Positions 44,636 through 52,926 of a stretch of 64,000 nucleotides of DNA are shown piece after piece; position 1 is the first letter of the stretch, and each line of letters opens with the position of its first letter. Both the position numbers and the translations under genes were made by a program. Below the pieces are notes generated by a model. That model saw only the letters and a list, made by a program, of their open reading frames with translations, was not told where the DNA came from and ran no database searches. This DNA comes from Pseudomonadota bacterium (lineage in GTDB: Bacteria; Pseudomonadota; Gammaproteobacteria; Pseudomonadales; Moraxellaceae), in NCBI GenBank assembly GCA_021833365.1, contig JAKBFV010000002.1, forward strand, positions 1 through 64,000, given 5' to 3'.

Positions 44636-45103
44636 TGCCAACCTCGTGGAGGACATTGAAGTCGGTGAGCTGGTAGCGCCCATGCTCAGCCTGGATTACC
44701 AGTTTGCTGTCCCTGATGTTTTGTATCACGAAGAAATGGAAGATCAGTACGCACACTGGCTGGACATGGGCTTGCAGACTCGCACCTTGTCATCGAAGGG
44801 TGTTGAACGTGTGCGGTCGCTGGCTCGTACCTACGCCAGGACTGGCAGAAACACCCTGTTTGCTCTGGCATTGGCAGAGATCGACAATGTCCACTGCTCA
44901 TTGGAAACGCTGCCCTGAGACAGGCAGCCGAAGCTGAACGGCTTGTGGTCCGGGATATCATCGGACTGATTACCGAGATGGTGCGTGAGCAACGTATTAC
45001 GGTTGCAGTAGCCAGGGCAGCGCTGCAAAAGATGAATGCCCGAGACAGATGGCTGCCTTGGGATGAGGCAGATCAGGCGCTTGTGACCTTTGAATTGGCG
45101 TAA
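44616..45103 (+). pseudogene. PIN-domain (DUF3368-like) toxin remnant, frameshifted
   Basis: The first part (MLLIIRDANLVEDIEVG, SLDYQFAVPDVLYHEEMEDQ, RNTLFALALAEIDNV) is the N-terminal two thirds of a PIN-domain protein. A shift near 44904 moves the rest to another frame: LRQAAEAERLVVRDIIGLI, EMVREQRITVAVARAALQKM, ARDRWLPWDEADQAL. It ends at TAA 45101-45103, sharing its last base with the hsdM ATG. Its 5' end overlaps the ImmA remnant by 20 bp, so the two were an operon: a PIN RNase toxin with a metallopeptidase partner. Confidence 0.8.
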
Positions 45104-46683
45104 TGAACACGACACGAAGGATTGGAATCCGTATGGCGAATGGCGATAGCAGCAAAAATAGCAATGGCGGCAACCTCGGCTTTGAAGCAGAGATGTTCAA
45201 GGCAGCCGACAAGCTCCGGGGCAACATGGAGCCCTCCGATTACAAACACGTTGCCCTCGGGCTTATTTTTCTCAAATACATCTCGGATGCCTTTGAAGCC
45301 AAGCACAAAGCGTTGCTGGCAGAGGATGCACTGGCCGCTGAGGACAAGGACGACTACCTCGCGGAGAACGTGTTCTGGGTGCCCAGGGAAGCGCGCTGGT
45401 CACACCTGCAAGCCCATGCCAAGCTGCCCACCATCGGTACGTTGATCGACGATGCCATGCGAGCCATCGAGAAGGACAACGAGACACTTAAAGGTGTGCT
45501 GCCCAAAGACTATGCCCGCCCTGCCTTGAACAAGGTCATGCTGGGTGAACTGATCGATCTGATCTCCGGCATTGCGCTCAATGAGGAAGGTAGCCGCTCC
45601 AAGGACATTCTGGGGCGCGTGTACGAATACTTTCTCGGTCAGTTCGCCGGTGCTGAAGGCAAGCGCGGTGGCGAGTTCTATACCCCGCGATCCGTTGTGC
45701 GTGTACTGGTCGAGATGCTTGAGCCCTACTCTGGGCGTGTCTATGACCCCTGCTGCGGCTCGGGCGGAATGTTTGTGCAGTCAGAAAAGTTTGTGCAGGA
45801 ACACGGTGGCCGTATCGCCGACATCGCCATCTATGGACAGGAATCGAACTACACCACCTGGCGGCTGGCCAAGATGAATCTGGCTGTGCGCGGCATCGAC
45901 TCGGATATTCGCTGGAACAATGAGGGCAGTTTCCATAAGGATGAACTGCGCGACCTCAAGGCAGATTACATCCTGGCAAATCCTCCCTTCAACATCTCTG
46001 ACTGGGGCGGTGACCGTTTGCGTGAGGATGTGCGCTGGAAGTTTGGGGCGCCACCTATAGGCAATGCCAACTACGCCTGGCTGCAACACATTTTCCATCA
46101 TCTTGCTCCCAACGGCACTGCCGGCGTTGTCCTGGCCAACGGATCCATGAGTTCCAACCAGTCTGGTGAAGGTGACATCCGCAAGGCCATGATCGAAGCC
46201 GATGCGGTGGATTGCATGGTGGCTCTCCCCGGGCAGCTCTTCTACTCCACACAGATTCCTGCTTGCCTCTGGTTCCTGGCTCGCAACAAGAACCCCGGCA
46301 AGGGCCTGCGAGACCGGCGCGGCCAGATCCTGTTCATCGATGCCAGAAAACTCGGTGTGCTGGTGGATCGCACCCGACGCGAGCTCACCGATGAAGAGGT
46401 CAAGAAGATCGCCGACACCTACCATGCCTGGCGAGGCGAACCCAAGGCTGGCGAGTACGCCGATGTGGCAGGATTCTGTAAGTCTGCGTCCTTGGAAGAC
46501 ATTCGCAAGCACGGTCATGTGCTGACCCCAGGGCGCTATGTCGGTGCAGCAGCACAGGAAGATGACGGTGAACCGTTTGAAGAGAAGATGCTTAGGCTCT
46601 CAGCGCTCTGGCGGGAACAACGTACTCAAGCCGCCGAGCTGGATGTAGCGATTGAGGCAAATCTGAAGCATCTTGGCTTTTGA
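45103..46683 (+). CDS. hsdM: Type I restriction-modification DNA methyltransferase subunit HsdM
   Basis: A 526-residue N6-adenine methyltransferase. The N-terminal HsdM helical domain ([36 protein letters not shown]) is followed by [14 protein letters not shown] (SAM motif I) and the catalytic [12 protein letters not shown] (N293-P-P-F296). Start options are ATG 45103, overlapping the PIN stop (TAATG), and ATG 45133. The HEPN gene follows 9 bp after its stop. GC content is lower than in flanking housekeeping genes, consistent with horizontal acquisition. Confidence 0.96.
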
Positions 46684-46692
46684 GAAGCGACC

Positions 46693-47106
46693 ATGAGCAA
46701 AGAAAAACTCAATATCCAGAATTTTGATAAAGCCATTACCCGCCTGGAAGAAGGCCTCTCTGTCTATCAAATGGATCCGGCCAACACGCTGATACGTGAT
46801 GGCTTGATTCAGCGCTTTGAGTTCACCTATGAAATCAGCCACAAGATCTTGAAGCGTTACCTGGAGTTTGTATCCGCTACGCCAGAGCAATACGACAGCA
46901 TGTCTTTTCAGGACTTGATTCGCTCGGGCAACGAGCAAGGGCTTTTACTGGGTGATTGGTCCAACTGGAAACGCTATCGCGACATGCGCTCCAAAACCAG
47001 TCATACCTACGATGAAGAGGTTGCGCTCGAAGTCGTGTCCGCCATACCTGATTTTCTAAATGAAGCACGTTATTTTCGTGATCAACTGAATGGCCGCCTG
47101 CGATGA
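46693..47106 (+). CDS. HEPN-domain (HepT/HI0074-like) toxin candidate
   Basis: A 137-residue all-helical protein of the nucleotidyltransferase substrate-binding (HI0074) family. FDKAITRLEEGL and RFEFTYEISHKILKRYL match the family, and RDMRSKTSHTYDEE contains RX4HXY at R99, H104 and Y106, the HEPN RNase motif whose Tyr is the AMPylation site in HepT/MntA systems. Free HepT is an RNase toxin. Its start follows AGAAGCGACC, and its stop overlaps the next start by 4 bp (ATGA). The partner nucleotidyltransferase is the N-terminal domain of the next protein. Confidence 0.9.
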   Translation: MSKEKLNIQNFDKAITRLEEGLSVYQMDPANTLIRDGLIQRFEFTYEISHKILKRYLEFVSATPEQYDSMSFQDLIRSGNEQGLLLGDWSNWKRYRDMRSKTSHTYDEEVALEVVSAIPDFLNEARYFRDQLNGRLR

Positions 47107-48752
47107 CGAAAACAGCACCGCTCATCGACATCCGCGAAGATCATTGGGACATCGTGCAGGGCATCTTGCAAAAGCATGTACCTCAGTATGAGGTCTGGGC
47201 CTTTGGCTCACGTGCCAAATGGACCGCCAAACAATACTCAGACCTTGATCTGGCCATTATCACCGACAAACCCCTGTCGCTGGATATCAGCGCCAGCCTC
47301 AGTGATGACTTCTCTGAATCCGATCTACCCTACAAGGTCGACATTGTCGATTGGGCGACGACCAGTGAATCATTCAGGAAGATTATTGAGCAGGATAAGG
47401 TGGTGGTGCAAACGAGGAAACCCAGATTGGGTGTGGCGAATTGTTGGCCTATCGTTAGACTTGAAGATGTAACAACAAAGCTAGGTGACGGCATTCACGG
47501 CACTCCCGAATATGATGATTCAGGTGACTACTATTTTGTTAATGGAAACAATCTAAGAAACGGAAGGATTTGTGTCGATGACAAAACGCGAAGGGTGAAC
47601 TTCGCTGAATATGAAAAACATATGAGGATTCTCAATCAACGCACAATTCTTGTCTCAATAAATGGAACTATTGGTAATGTTGCCGTATATTCTGGCGAGA
47701 AAATAGTACTTGGTAAAAGTGCCTGCTATTTTAATGTGAGGGATAGTGTTAGTTTACATTTCGTTCGTTATGTAATCTCCGGAAACATTTTTCAAAACTA
47801 TATTCAAACACTGGCTACAGGCTCTACGATTAAGAATGTATCGTTAAAACTGATGCGAGATTTTTCCTTTTTTCTGCCACCCATCGAAGAACAACGCGCC
47901 ATCGCCCACATCCTAGGTACTCTGGACGACAAGATCGAACTCAACCGCAAGCAGAACGAAACCTTGGAGGCCATGGCGCGCGCTTTGTTCAAGGCATGGT
48001 TTGTAAACTTCGAGCCGGTAAGAGCCAAAATGGAAGGCCGCTGGCAACGAGGTCAGTCCCTGCCCGGCCTGCCCGCGCACCTCTATGATCTCTTTTCTGA
48101 CAGGCTTGTGGATTCGGAGTTGGGGGAGATTCCGGAGGGGTGGGAAAGTGTACCGGCAAGCAGACTCGTCAAGTTCAATCCTTCCGAACCCTTGCGAATG
48201 GGGACGGAAGCTCCGTACATTGAGATGGCTGCTTTGCCAACATCTGGAAGCTGGCCTGAGCCGCCGGTTTTGCGACCGTTTAGTAGTGGCATGCGTTTTC
48301 GCAACGGCGATACCTTGCTGGCTCGCATCACACCCTGTTTGGAAAATGGGAAGACGGCCTTCGTCCAGTGCTTGCCGGATAACACAGTGGGTTGGGGTTC
48401 CACAGAGTACATCGTGATGCGCCCCCATCTTCCTGTGCCGCAGGAGTTTGGGTACTTGCTGGCACGCGATGCTGTCTTTCGGGAGCAAGCCATCCGGAGC
48501 ATGACCGGCACTTCTGGTCGCCAACGTGTTCAGGCTGACTCAGTGGCCGCATTCAAGATCGCAGCCCCTTCTAACAAAGCTGTGTGGGATGCATTCTCGA
48601 GTATTGTCACGCCCGCATTCATGAGCATTAAGGCCAACGCGGAGGCAATCGCAACTCTCACCCAACTGCGTGACACCCTGCTGCCTAAACTTATCTCCGG
48701 TGAGTTACGTGTTTCGGAGGTTGAGTCTTTTATCAAGGAACGAGGTTTGTGA
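47103..48752 (+). CDS. hsdS: MntA-like nucleotidyltransferase fused to type I specificity subunit HsdS
   Basis: A 549-residue fusion. Residues 1-103 are a minimal nucleotidyltransferase: G35-S36-X10-D47-L-D49 is the GSX10DXD motif and D80 (YKVDIVDW) the third carboxylate, as in MntA. From about residue 114 (CWPIVRLEDVTTKLGDG) a complete HsdS follows: TRD1, the central conserved helix (PPIEEQRAIAHILGTLDDKIELN region, then ALFKAWFVNFEPV), TRD2 (from WESVPASRLVKF), and the distal repeat LTQLRDTLLPKLISGEL. HsdS alone is about 430-450 residues. The frame is continuous, so this is not a read error joining two genes. TRD1 is AT-rich. A GTG at 47433 could start a stand-alone HsdS. Confidence 0.92.
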   Translation: MTKTAPLIDIREDHWDIVQGILQKHVPQYEVWAFGSRAKWTAKQYSDLDLAIITDKPLSLDISASLSDDFSESDLPYKVDIVDWATTSESFRKIIEQDKVVVQTRKPRLGVANCWPIVRLEDVTTKLGDGIHGTPEYDDSGDYYFVNGNNLRNGRICVDDKTRRVNFAEYEKHMRILNQRTILVSINGTIGNVAVYSGEKIVLGKSACYFNVRDSVSLHFVRYVISGNIFQNYIQTLATGSTIKNVSLKLMRDFSFFLPPIEEQRAIAHILGTLDDKIELNRKQNETLEAMARALFKAWFVNFEPVRAKMEGRWQRGQSLPGLPAHLYDLFSDRLVDSELGEIPEGWESVPASRLVKFNPSEPLRMGTEAPYIEMAALPTSGSWPEPPVLRPFSSGMRFRNGDTLLARITPCLENGKTAFVQCLPDNTVGWGSTEYIVMRPHLPVPQEFGYLLARDAVFREQAIRSMTGTSGRQRVQADSVAAFKIAAPSNKAVWDAFSSIVTPAFMSIKANAEAIATLTQLRDTLLPKLISGELRVSEVESFIKERGL

Positions 48753-48754
48753 CT

Positions 48755-49744
48755 ATGGAAAAGTTGATTATTTTTGACTCCGATTGGGGAGGTATCGATG
48801 TACGGATTGAGGGTGAGACCGTCTGGTTATCACAAGCGCAAATGGCTGATCTGTTTGGCACCTCATCTGACAATATCAGTTTGCACCTCAAAAACATCTA
48901 CAATGACCAGGAACTTCAGGATGAGGCAACTACCGAGGATTTCTCGGTAGTTCGTCAAGAGGGGATGCGTCAGGTACAGCGCAAGCTCAAACACTATAAC
49001 CTGGATGCCATCATTTCTGTAGGCTATCGGGTCAATTCCACCCAAGCCACCCGTTTTCGCCAATGGGCAACAAGAGTTTTGCGTGAGCATTTGATTCATG
49101 GGTACTCGCTGGACCGCGTACGATTTGAGCAGAATGCAGCGGAGTTGGAAGCTGCTCTGGCACTGGTTAAAAAGGCTGCGGCGGGGCAGGCACTGACCTC
49201 TGAGCAAGGGCGGGGTCTGGTGGATGTGATTGCCCGCTATACCCAGACCTTTCTCTGGCTGCAACGCTATGACGAAGGTCTGCTGAGCGAACCCGTGGGC
49301 CATCCCGGAGGAGAATTGCCAACTCTGGGGGAGGCTCGTTGGGGAATTGCCCAGCTCAAGGCGGATCTGATGGCGCGCGGTGAAGCCACGGAGTTGTTCG
49401 GCCAGGAGCGTGGCGATGCTTTTGCCGCCCTGCTTGGCAATCTGCAACAAACAATATTTGGCGAACCTGCTTATCCCAGCGTCGAATCCAAGGCGGCGCA
49501 CCTGCTGTACTTTGTCATCAAGAATCATCCATTTTCCGATGGCAACAAGCGCAGCGGCGCATTTTTATTTGTCGATTTTCTGGCACGCAATGGACGGCTG
49601 ATACACAGAGGGACCCCCATCATCAACGATATTGGGCTTGCAGCACTTGCGCTTCTCGTCGCTGAGTCGGATCCAAACTCGAAAGACATCATGATTCGCC
49701 TGATTGAAAACATGCTGGTACTACCCACCAAGGGAGAGCCTTAA
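48755..49744 (+). CDS. RhuM/Fic-DOC family protein
   Basis: A 329-residue two-domain protein. The N-terminal part ([45 protein letters not shown]) is the RhuM domain. The C-terminal part is Fic/DOC, with [11 protein letters not shown] from His258; GNKR without the second Arg resembles DOC-type (HxFxDANKR) rather than the classic HPFxxGNGRxxR AMPylase. ATG 48755 is preferred; GTG 48749 overlapping the hsdS stop is possible. It may modify a host or phage target. It ends in TAATG with hsdR. No separate Phd-type antitoxin is visible. Confidence 0.9.
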
Positions 49745-52700
49745 TGGCATTTTTGTCAGAGGCCGAGGTCGAAGGGGCGTTGCTGGAACAGATGCGAGCG
49801 CTGGGCTACCAGATCGAACGCGAGGAAGATATCGGTCCCGATGGACACCGACCGGAGCGCGAGAGTCATGACGAGGTCATGCTCAGGAAACGGTTCGAGG
49901 ACGCCGTAGCACGCCTGAACCCGGGCCTGCCACTTGCGGCACGTCAGGATGCTGTGCGGCGCGTGATGCAATCGGAACTGCCATCGTTGCTTGAAGAGAA
50001 CCGCCGCCTCCATAAGCTGATCACGGAATGCGTGGACGTCGAGTACTACGCGGACGACGGCACGCTGACGGCGAGCAAGGTCACGCTCATCGCCTTCGAG
50101 CATCCAGAGGAAAACGATTGGTTGGCGGTGAGCCAGTTCGTAGTGATCAACGGCCAGAATAACCGGCGTCCCGATGTGGTGGTGTTCGTCAACGGCCTAC
50201 CTCTTGGTGTGATTGAGCTAAAAGCCCCGGGCAGTGCGGGTGCGCATCTGCTGGGCGCGTTCAACCAGTTACAGACCTACAAGAAGCAGATTCCGGCATT
50301 GTTCAACACCAATGCGCTGCTGGTCACCTCCGACGGTATAACTGCCCGGGTGGGTTCACTGTCAGCCAATCTTGAACGCTTCATGCCTTGGCGCACCACC
50401 GACGGCAAGGACGTTGCGCCCAAAGGTGCGCCAGAACTTTCAACATTGATCGAGGGCCTGTTCGAACACCGCCGCCTGCTGGATCTGCTCCGTCATTTCA
50501 CGGTCTTTGGTGAAACCGCTTCAGGCTTGGCGAAGATCATCGCAGGCTACCATCAATTCCATGCCGTACAACACGCGGTGGCCTCCACCATTCGTGCATC
50601 AACCCCTGTTCAGGGTATCACCGAAGATCCCATTGGCTATGGCCTGCGCAGTGTCCAGACTCAGCGTCAAGGCGACCAACGCGCAGGTGTCATCTGGCAC
50701 ACCCAGGGATCCGGCAAAAGCCTGCTGATGGCGTTCTACGCTGGGCAGCTCGTCAAACATCCCCTGATGGCCAACCCAACACTGGTGGTGCTGACAGACA
50801 GAAACGATCTCGACGATCAGCTCTTCTCGACGTTTTCCATGTGCCGCGATCTGATCCGACAGACGCCGGTGCAGGCGGAGAGCCGCGAAGATCTGCAGAA
50901 GCTCTTGAACCGGGCATCGGGCGGTGTGATTTTTACAACCTTGCAGAAGTTTGGCGAGATTGCTGAGCCACTCACCACACGACGCAACGTGGTCGTCATC
51001 GCGGATGAAGCCCATCGCAGTCAGTACGGGTTCAAGGCCAAGGTGGACGCAAAGACCGGCGAAATTTCCTATGGTTTCGCCAAGTACATGCGCGACGCCC
51101 TGCCGAACGCCTCCTTCATCGGTTTTACCGGCACGCCTATCGAAGCGGACGACGTCAACACCCCGGCCGTGTTCGGCAACTACATCGACGTCTACGACAT
51201 CAGCCGTGCCGTCGAGGACGGTGCGACCGTACCGATCTATTACGAGTCGCGACTGGCGCGCATTGAACTCGACGAGGAAGAAAAGTCAAAGATTGACGCC
51301 GAGGTTGATGATCTTACCGAAGAGGACTCTGAGGCTGACCAGGAGCGATTCAAAAAGAAATGGTCAACGGTTGAAGCCCTGGTCGGTAGCGATCACCGCT
51401 TGGCACTGGTCGCCAAGGACATGGTCACTCACTTTGAGGATCGGGTGGCAGCCCTCGATGGCAAAGCGATGGTGGTGTGCATGAGCCGTCGTATAGGCGT
51501 GAGACTCTACGACGAGATCATCAAGCTGCGTCCAGACTGGCACTGCACCGATGACAATGCAGGCTCGGTCAAGATCGTGATGACAGGGGCAGCGAGTGAT
51601 CCACAAGAATGGCAGCAACACATCGGCAATAAAGCACGGCGTGATCTGCTGGCCAAGCGCGCTCGCGACCCTCAAGACCCGCTCAAGCTGGTGATCGTGC
51701 GGGATATGTGGCTGACTGGGTTTGACGCGCCCTGCATGCACACGATGTACATTGACAAGCCCATGCAAGGTCACGGACTGATGCAGGCCATTGCTCGTGT
51801 GAACCGGGTATTCCGCGACAAACCAGCCGGGCTGATCGTTGACTACATCGGGATTGCGCAAAACCTCAAATCAGCCCTGAAGCAGTATTCGAAGAATGAC
51901 CAGGAAAACACAGGTGTCGAGGAAGCACAGGCCATTGCAGCATTAATGGAAAAATACGAGGTCGTGCGGGACATGTACCATGGCTTCGACTACACCTCTG
52001 CAATAACTGGGACACCGCAAGAGCGACTAACCATGATGGCGGGGGCCATTGAATGGATTCTCGATCTGCAACAGCGGCTGGCTGCGCAGGAGAATACCAA
52101 GGAGGGCAAAAAAAACGCCCATCGCCGATACCAGGATGCAGTCCTGGCGCTATCTGTGGCATTTGCCTTGGCGGCCGCTTCCGACGAAGCGCGCAAGATT
52201 CGTGAGGAGGTCGGCTTCTTCCAAGCCATCCGTGCCGCATTGGTCAAGAGCAGCACCGGCTCTGGAGCAACCCAGCAAGAACGTGAACTGGCCATCCAGC
52301 AGATCGTCAGCCGCGCAGTGGTCTCAACTGAAATCGTGGACATCCTGACCGCTGCAGGCATCAAGAGCCCGGACATATCCATCCTCTCCGACGAATTTCT
52401 TGCCGAAGTTCAGCAGATGGAAAGGAAGAACCTTGCCATGGAGGCCTTGCGCAAGCTGATCAACGACGGTATTCGCTCACGCAGCAAAGCCAACGTGGTG
52501 CAAACCAAAGCCTTCTCGGAACGTCTGGAAGACGCTGTGGCGCGTTACCACGCCAATGCGATCACCACGGCCGAGGTGCTGCAGGAACTGATTCAACTGG
52601 CAAAGGATATCCGTGCTGCCCGGCAACGTGGTGAAGAGTCCGGACTGTCAGACGAAGAGATCGCCTTCTACGATGCCCTGGCTGAGAACGAAAGTGCCGT

Positions 52701-52926
52701 GCAGGTGATGGGTGATGACAAGTTGCGGGTCATTGCCCATGAATTGCTGATGAGCCTGCGAGAAAATGTCACGGTGGACTGGGCGCACCGCGACTCTGCT
52801 CGGGCGCGTATGCGGGTTCTCGTGAAGCGCATTTTACGCAAGTACGGCTACCCGCCTGACCTTCAGGATGCGGCCGTACAAACGGTACTGCAGCAGGCTG
52901 AGGCATTGTCAGCAGAGTGGTCATAA
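49744..52926 (+). CDS. hsdR: Type I restriction endonuclease subunit HsdR
   Basis: A 1060-residue motor-nuclease. The nuclease PD-(D/E)xK core is D144 ... E158-L-K160 ([15 protein letters not shown]). The SF2 translocase has [12 protein letters not shown] (Lys325), [24 protein letters not shown] (DEAH), FIGFTGTPI and later [18 protein letters not shown]. The C-terminus binds the methylase core. Length is normal and no break is seen. Last gene of the operon; the right repeat starts 15 bp after its stop. Confidence 0.96.

Follow-up and report, generated by a model that had tools for sequence, protein, structure and literature searches.

A recurrent fusion of a putative MNT antitoxin domain to HsdS, beside a HEPN gene, in type I restriction operons

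HEPN/MNT pairs have been called the most abundant predicted toxin-antitoxin systems in prokaryotes (PMC7641770). At the locus described here such a pair lies inside a type I restriction-modification (R-M) operon, and the antitoxin is found as residues 1-104 of a 549-aa HsdS, not as a small stand-alone protein. This raises the questions of how the two became joined, whether the pair still works as toxin and antitoxin, and what the tether to the specificity subunit might do. The window, i.e., the whole stretch of DNA analyzed, comprises 64,000 nucleotides from a Pseudomonadota bacterium of the Moraxellaceae (GenBank assembly GCA_021833365.1, contig JAKBFV010000002.1, positions 1 to 64,000 of the forward strand). 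Its operon consists of five plus-strand genes in the order hsdM, HEPN, MNT-hsdS, RhuM-Fic and hsdR, with the following features:

45103..46683, plus strand: hsdM, methyltransferase subunit of the type I R-M system, 526 aa (PF02384, E=2.8e-109; PF12161, E=1.2e-24; PADLOC MTase_I, E=2e-220)
46693..47106, plus strand: HEPN of the HI0074/PF08780 branch, putative RNase toxin, 137 aa (matches to PF08780, 1jog and 8xdj)
47103..48752, plus strand: MNT-HsdS fusion, a single open frame of 549 aa (PF18765, PF01909 and PF01420)
47103..47414, plus strand: MNT (minimal nucleotidyltransferase) domain, residues 1-104 (G35, S36, D47, D49, D80; match to HI0073, 1no5)
47415..47435, plus strand: flexible linker with an apparent relic of the ancestral hsdS start (low pLDDT; comparison with L188)
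47433..48752, plus strand: complete HsdS with two target-recognition domains and two long helices, residues 261-301 and 492-532 (PADLOC, VIA-align)
48749..49744, plus strand: RhuM-Fic, 331 aa (PF13310, E=5.4e-25; PF02661, E=2.8e-11; PADLOC PDC-S23, E=4.7e-130)
49744..52926, plus strand: hsdR, restriction subunit, 1060 aa (PF11867, PF18766, PF04313; PADLOC REase_I, 1137 bits)

The type I set of hsdM, hsdS and hsdR is present with complete domains according to both Pfam and PADLOC. A gap of 9 bases separates hsdM from HEPN, while the remaining three joints overlap, and an ATGA is common to the HEPN stop and the MNT-HsdS start. Because of these overlaps, the genes from hsdM to hsdR look like one translationally coupled operon. 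The RhuM-Fic protein carries the Fic motif HPFSDGNKR, so that together with the MNT domain two putative nucleotide-transferring enzymes are encoded in the operon; RhuM matches were also found at L038, L137, L168 and L181. The G+C content of the first target-recognition domain (47440-47880) is 37.5%, well below the operon (54.6%) and the window (63%), which would be expected of an exchanged recognition domain.

The protein encoded between hsdM and hsdS had been described in the first-pass annotation as a HepT-like HEPN protein with an intact RX4HXY motif. The HEPN assignment and the motif stand, as profile searches matched PF08780 (E=1.4e-38) and TIGR01987 (HI0074; E=2.8e-26), and the residues RSKTSHTY supply R99, H104 and Y106. 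The comparison with HepT needs correcting: the match to the HepT family PF01934 stayed below that family's cut-off, and the protein belongs to the HI0074 (PF08780) branch. Against solved structures, it matched HI0074 (1jog, E=1.1e-22) and the Legionella HEPN (8xdj, E=3e-12). In the latter, mutations place the active site at Q44/E47, and R98/H103 are dispensable for RNase activity (PMC11586414); Q40 and E43 of the window's HEPN align with these active-site residues. The Legionella HEPN-MNT module is the characterized pair nearest to the window's HI0073/HI0074-like partners.

The first pass had also placed the nucleotidyltransferase, with its GSX10DXD motif and third Asp, at the N-terminus of HsdS in one uninterrupted frame, and this is borne out by the domain matches. 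PF18765 (E=1.5e-12) and PF01909 (E=2.2e-8) fall within residues 20-103, and PF01420 (E=8.9e-20) covers residues 115-289 of the same protein. The motif is GSRAKWTAKQYSDLD, running from G35-S36 to D47/D49, and the third Asp is D80. Residues 113-547 align to positions 3-445 of the 446 positions of the PADLOC Specificity_I profile; since the alignment begins at profile position 3, the HsdS is complete and the MNT domain is an addition. An AlphaFold2 model of the fusion, built on 38 fused proteins with the plasmid-derived row left out, has a mean pLDDT of 92, and the only stretch below 50 is residues 107-109, the joint. In this model, residues 7-106 match HI0073 (1no5) at 0.9-1.1 A and 55-56% identity over about 100 residues, and also the Legionella MNT (8xeo; both by Foldseek and VIA-align), while residues 109-539 match the solved HsdS chains 7vru, 1ydx and 1yf2 with Z of 20-22 (VIA-align).

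The fusion is not confined to the window. We found 45 distinct MNT-HsdS fusions across Pseudomonadota, Fibrobacterota and Chloroflexota, cultured strains included, with HEPN upstream in 44, and recurrence in 45 distinct loci is far beyond chance. An isolated assembly artefact, which the first pass had named as what would overturn its claim, is ruled out by the same architecture at these loci, isolates among them. That the fusion is an isolated curiosity is likewise ruled out by its recurrence. Pfam confirmed both domains in nine tested fusions from divergent MNT branches, in line with the architecture first proposed. Unfused MNT versions also occur inside the same kind of operons.

In the class sample of 369 genomes, several MNT matches lay in frames of about 480-760 aa, and most of these loci keep the order hsdM, HEPN, MNT-HsdS; the phylum sample added further cases. 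Among the 80 named GTDB loci nearest to the MNT domain, 31 are fused, 8 are unfused with hsd genes alongside, and 41 are stand-alone, nearly all of the last with a HEPN gene. All of the 31 fused loci but one, L136, have HEPN upstream (30 loci; in L143 with one intervening gene). Fused carriers include Nitrosomonas mobilis, Ferrovum myxofaciens, Simplicispira psychrophila, Pseudomonas sp. 8Z, two Xanthomonas species, one Fibrobacterota bin and one Chloroflexota bin. The fused form is also found on the Zymomonas mobilis plasmid pZMOB01, whereas on Acetobacter plasmids hsdM is followed by individual genes for HEPN, MNT, HsdS and HsdR; one of these plasmids has an interrupted hsdM. When one class sample was surveyed starting from hsdM, HEPN lay downstream in 8 of 30 related hsdM loci, five of the eight being fused, so the arrangement is not rare. 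A single scan of viral contigs for relatives found none. Positions 1-100 of the PADLOC profile PDLC03138, named 'Specificity_I', match an MNT domain; the fusion is therefore already in the PADLOC collection, with the antitoxin domain absent from the name.

Some loci depart from the common layout. L042 (G116) holds, within 19 kb, two HEPN/MNT-bearing restriction loci, one fused and one unfused. At L130:3193-6879 (Magnetococcales DC0425bin3) an MNT domain is in frame on the N-terminus of HsdM with its own HEPN ahead; next come another HEPN and an MNT-HsdS without most of its target-recognition domains. Tandem HEPN genes precede MNT-HsdS at L089:3034-3857 (Magnetococcales WMHbinv6), the first degenerate (RGKSNYTY) and the second intact. 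In L155 (Chloroflexi bacterium FW602_bin.22), an Asp replaces the AMP-accepting Tyr (RTSHTDD) of the HEPN upstream of 6968, beside MNT-HsdS. Finally, L036:7621-8290, from the same-genus genome G007, retains the last hsdM codons and an intact HEPN that is 91% identical, with the remaining operon gone; transposon-like sequence truncates its MNT at residue 55. This HEPN, lacking a whole antitoxin, probably survives unexpressed.

How the fusion arose can be read at the joint. Relatives without the cassette have overlapping hsdM and hsdS genes: in L188, whose HsdM is 83% identical, hsdM ends in TTGGGTATGGTGGGTGA, and within it ATGGTGGGTGACTGG is the start of hsdS. We compared TTGGGTGTGGCG of the window with TTGGGTATGGTG at this overlap; the window joint reads TTGGGTGTGGCGAATTGTTGG, and GTG 47433 sits where the hsdS ATG was, so that the joint is apparently the same relic hsdS start, now in frame. 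The linker offers TTG 47427-47429 and GTG 47433-47435 as candidate starts, with an AGGA stretch ahead at 47415-47418. At the unfused L149, L168 and L181 the MNT frame terminates in ATGGCGGGTGA, which is the start of hsdS in a different frame; the MNT of L149 and of L181 bears a copy of the HsdM tail. The relic at the joint together with the unfused loci points to insertion of the cassette at the ancestral hsdM/hsdS overlap. In the explanation we favor, a type VII HEPN/MNT cassette of the HI0074/HI0073 branch would have inserted there, and its antitoxin frame would have joined hsdS. The fused and unfused states differ by a small frame change.

The MNT tree speaks to how often this happened. Based on 100 columns and 72 domains, it needs 15 changes of fusion state, at least seven of them forced by well-supported branches; its 23 'fused' rows include one MNT-HsdM fusion, and L096 and L097 were called by length alone. 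As reconstructed, the tree requires repeated fusion or loss, and a single origin of the fusion is disfavored.

Such frequent change would also suit a fusion without mechanical consequence, in which the cassette was captured through the clustering of defense genes, the frames were joined, and HEPN/MNT acts as an ordinary pair. The MNT stop overlaps the hsdS start, so single-base indels would fuse the frames with function unchanged; in the unfused loci the MNT stop indeed lies inside ATGGCGGGTGAGTGG, which in a different frame is where hsdS starts. About half of the fusions keep a possible internal start for hsdS with a Shine-Dalgarno-like sequence, which fits the same reading. The signal exceeds that of codon-shuffled controls (Wilcoxon p 2.5e-4 over 23 non-independent loci, only one of the 23 being individually significant). 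A simpler test, with p of about 3e-29, carries no weight because the conserved KVVVQ codons confound it. Fusions keeping this start may thus also make MNT-free HsdS. However, the internal start is absent in 16 of the 45 loci, so every HsdS made there carries MNT. Moreover, 31 of 39 embedded GTDB loci and five of eight in the hsdM-first survey are fused, versus about one third expected for a random frame, although the sampling leans to fusions, the set was partly chosen for long frames, and the loci are not independent. Taken together, we consider a neutral fusion rather unlikely.

The residues that the pair would need are strongly kept. Among 48 distinct restriction-embedded loci, G35, S36, R37, D47, D49 and D80 of MNT are invariant, as are E43, R99 and H104 of HEPN; Y106 is found in 47 and Q40 in 45, and all three RX4HXY residues are kept in 47. 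A degenerate, non-functional HEPN or MNT is ruled out by this conservation. Between two Xanthomonas fusions, the MNT domain has a dN of 0.067 and a dS of 0.57, values that point to purifying selection on the fused domain. HEPN and MNT distances correlate at 0.61, or 0.57 with HsdM removed, while HEPN and HsdM correlate at 0.27, so HEPN and MNT move together from one R-M backbone to another.

Another target for the enzyme can also be imagined, i.e., MNT modifying a restriction subunit or nucleic acid with HEPN merely as its substrate-binding subunit, as in the original idea on HI0073/HI0074. HI0074 was reportedly first described as a substrate-binding partner, and other fused nucleotidyltransferases have diverse targets. 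A mere binding subunit would, however, need neither the acceptor Tyr nor the RNase residues, which are kept in 45-48 of the 48 loci, and a toxin-antitoxin function is known for the Legionella pair, from the same branch. This reading is very improbable.

The characterized relatives instead suggest what HEPN and MNT would do. MntA puts three AMP on Tyr104 of HepT, which silences HepT (PMC7641770). The Legionella HEPN is toxic in E. coli and cleaves rRNA, and its MNT binds HEPN as a tetramer and AMPylates it, though inefficiently (PMC11586414). By analogy, HEPN would be a growth-arresting RNase, and the MNT domain would neutralize it by binding and by adding AMP to Tyr106. That HEPN and MNT-HsdS form a working toxin-antitoxin is, in our judgment, very probable.

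What the tether adds is less certain. We propose that silencing of the RNase would depend on continued production of HsdS in an unhindered state, and that loss or blocking of the restriction complex would leave newly made, unmodified HEPN to mount a second-line response, dormancy-inducing or abortive. HEPN would then back up the restriction complex as PrrC backs up EcoprrI. A guard role has been proposed for R-M-linked HEPN genes as a whole, with PrrC-EcoprrI as the precedent (Anantharaman et al. 2013, PMC3710099), and PrrC is cited in the same role elsewhere (PMC12707154). The guard idea is plausible because of the physical tether, its repeated evolution, the PrrC-EcoprrI case, the proposal for R-M-linked HEPN and the parallel of MntA on a CRISPR subunit. 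Against it, MNT sits at the N-terminus, and late hsdS frameshifts would therefore leave it intact. In addition, AMPylation is covalent, so silenced HEPN would not be revived at once when HsdS is blocked; release would depend on new HEPN synthesis or on AMP removal. Three further observations count against the explanation: the persistence of HEPN beside a truncated MNT in L036, although the upstream operon is missing there, the Asp at the acceptor position in L155, and the MNT-free HsdS that fusions with an internal start may make. We place the guard function of the tether slightly below an even chance. Its more specific form, in which HsdS itself is the antitoxin that AMPylates the RNase, and anti-restriction proteins or engagement with foreign DNA trigger the RNase by tying up HsdS, is held more tentatively. 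For the whole explanation of a captured type VII cassette, an HsdS-tethered antitoxin and a second-line RNase, we see the chances as evenly balanced.

Loss of the operon, not its inhibition, would be the trigger if HEPN/MNT were an addiction module that stabilizes the restriction operon as a selfish unit. Operon loss would then end the supply of antitoxin and poison the cell, with no sensing of phages, and the fusion would make hsdS itself hard to lose. The Shewanella HEPN/MNT stabilizes plasmids (PMC4621449), embedded versions are found on the Zymomonas and Acetobacter plasmids described above, and the cassette moves between R-M backbones. Yet an unfused antitoxin would serve equally, which leaves the repeated fusion to HsdS unexplained, and the congener L036 has lost hsdS but kept an intact HEPN reading frame, its promoter probably gone. 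We regard addiction as unlikely, though a serious alternative to the guard.

The opposite trigger is recognition itself: with HsdS on unmethylated DNA, or with the complex closing or translocating, MNT would release HEPN or stop modifying it, giving abortive infection upon recognition and not upon inhibition. In the AlphaFold2 model MNT is flexibly attached beside the first target-recognition domain. The PDB also contains MntA joined to a subunit that is named Cmr1, and type I complexes change form, as a solved intermediate of EcoR124I with Ocr illustrates (7bst). Such an alarm would, however, need rapid reactivation of AMPylated HEPN, and we find it improbable.

Collectively, MNT-HsdS is a recurrent, conserved and apparently unrecognized fusion. 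With the antitoxin in HsdS, anti-phage DNA cutting is physically tied to a likely suicide or dormancy RNase. If the guard explanation is true, one protein joins DNA restriction to a second layer of immunity, suicide or dormancy through RNA cleavage, the HEPN/MNT pair gains a concrete trigger, and a widespread, repeatedly evolved class of restriction guards uses covalent modification. The guard hypothesis is directly testable with standard anti-restriction proteins. Annotations give the fusion no other name than 'restriction endonuclease subunit S', and toxin-antitoxins may therefore go unseen in many annotated R-M systems. We found no description of the fusion in the open literature searched. 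In 2013, R-M-linked HEPN genes were described from at least 16 clades; that account limits fusions of the R-M HEPN domains to nuclease, helicase and ATPase subunits, excludes methylases and does not mention HsdS (PMC3710099).

Compared with known systems, the pair is closest to type VII HEPN/MNT (Shewanella HepT/MntA, Legionella HEPN-MNT and HI0074/HI0073), with which it shares adjacent same-strand genes, RX4HXY, GSX10DXD with a third Asp, and the HI0073 fold. The likeness to the Legionella module extends to a short MNT without the C-terminal alpha4 helix and to the Q/E active-site residues. In those systems the antitoxin is a separate protein, whereas in the window it is the N-terminal domain of HsdS within a type I R-M operon.

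Other systems share the setting. DarTG2 in the RptR island of E. coli is a toxin-antitoxin embedded among the hsd genes of a type I R-M operon (PMC12255303), but it lies between hsdS and hsdR, uses other toxin chemistry, and fusion to HsdS is not described for it. Cmr1-MntA (PDB 9z7q, 9z7v, 9z7x), known here from its PDB molecule name and a sequence match, also has an MntA-type domain on a subunit of a multi-subunit immune complex, but the subunit is of CRISPR type and the MNT is C-terminal (355-431 of 438). PrrC-EcoprrI, an anticodon nuclease in a type IC hsd operon, similarly places a HEPN-superfamily RNase inside an hsd operon. PrrC acts when restriction is defeated, which for the window's HEPN is a proposal. 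PrrC includes an ABC ATPase domain and is restrained through contact with protein, whereas the window encodes a separate HEPN, a single domain of 137 aa with no ABC-ATPase domain fused, and a putative covalently modifying antitoxin carried in HsdS.
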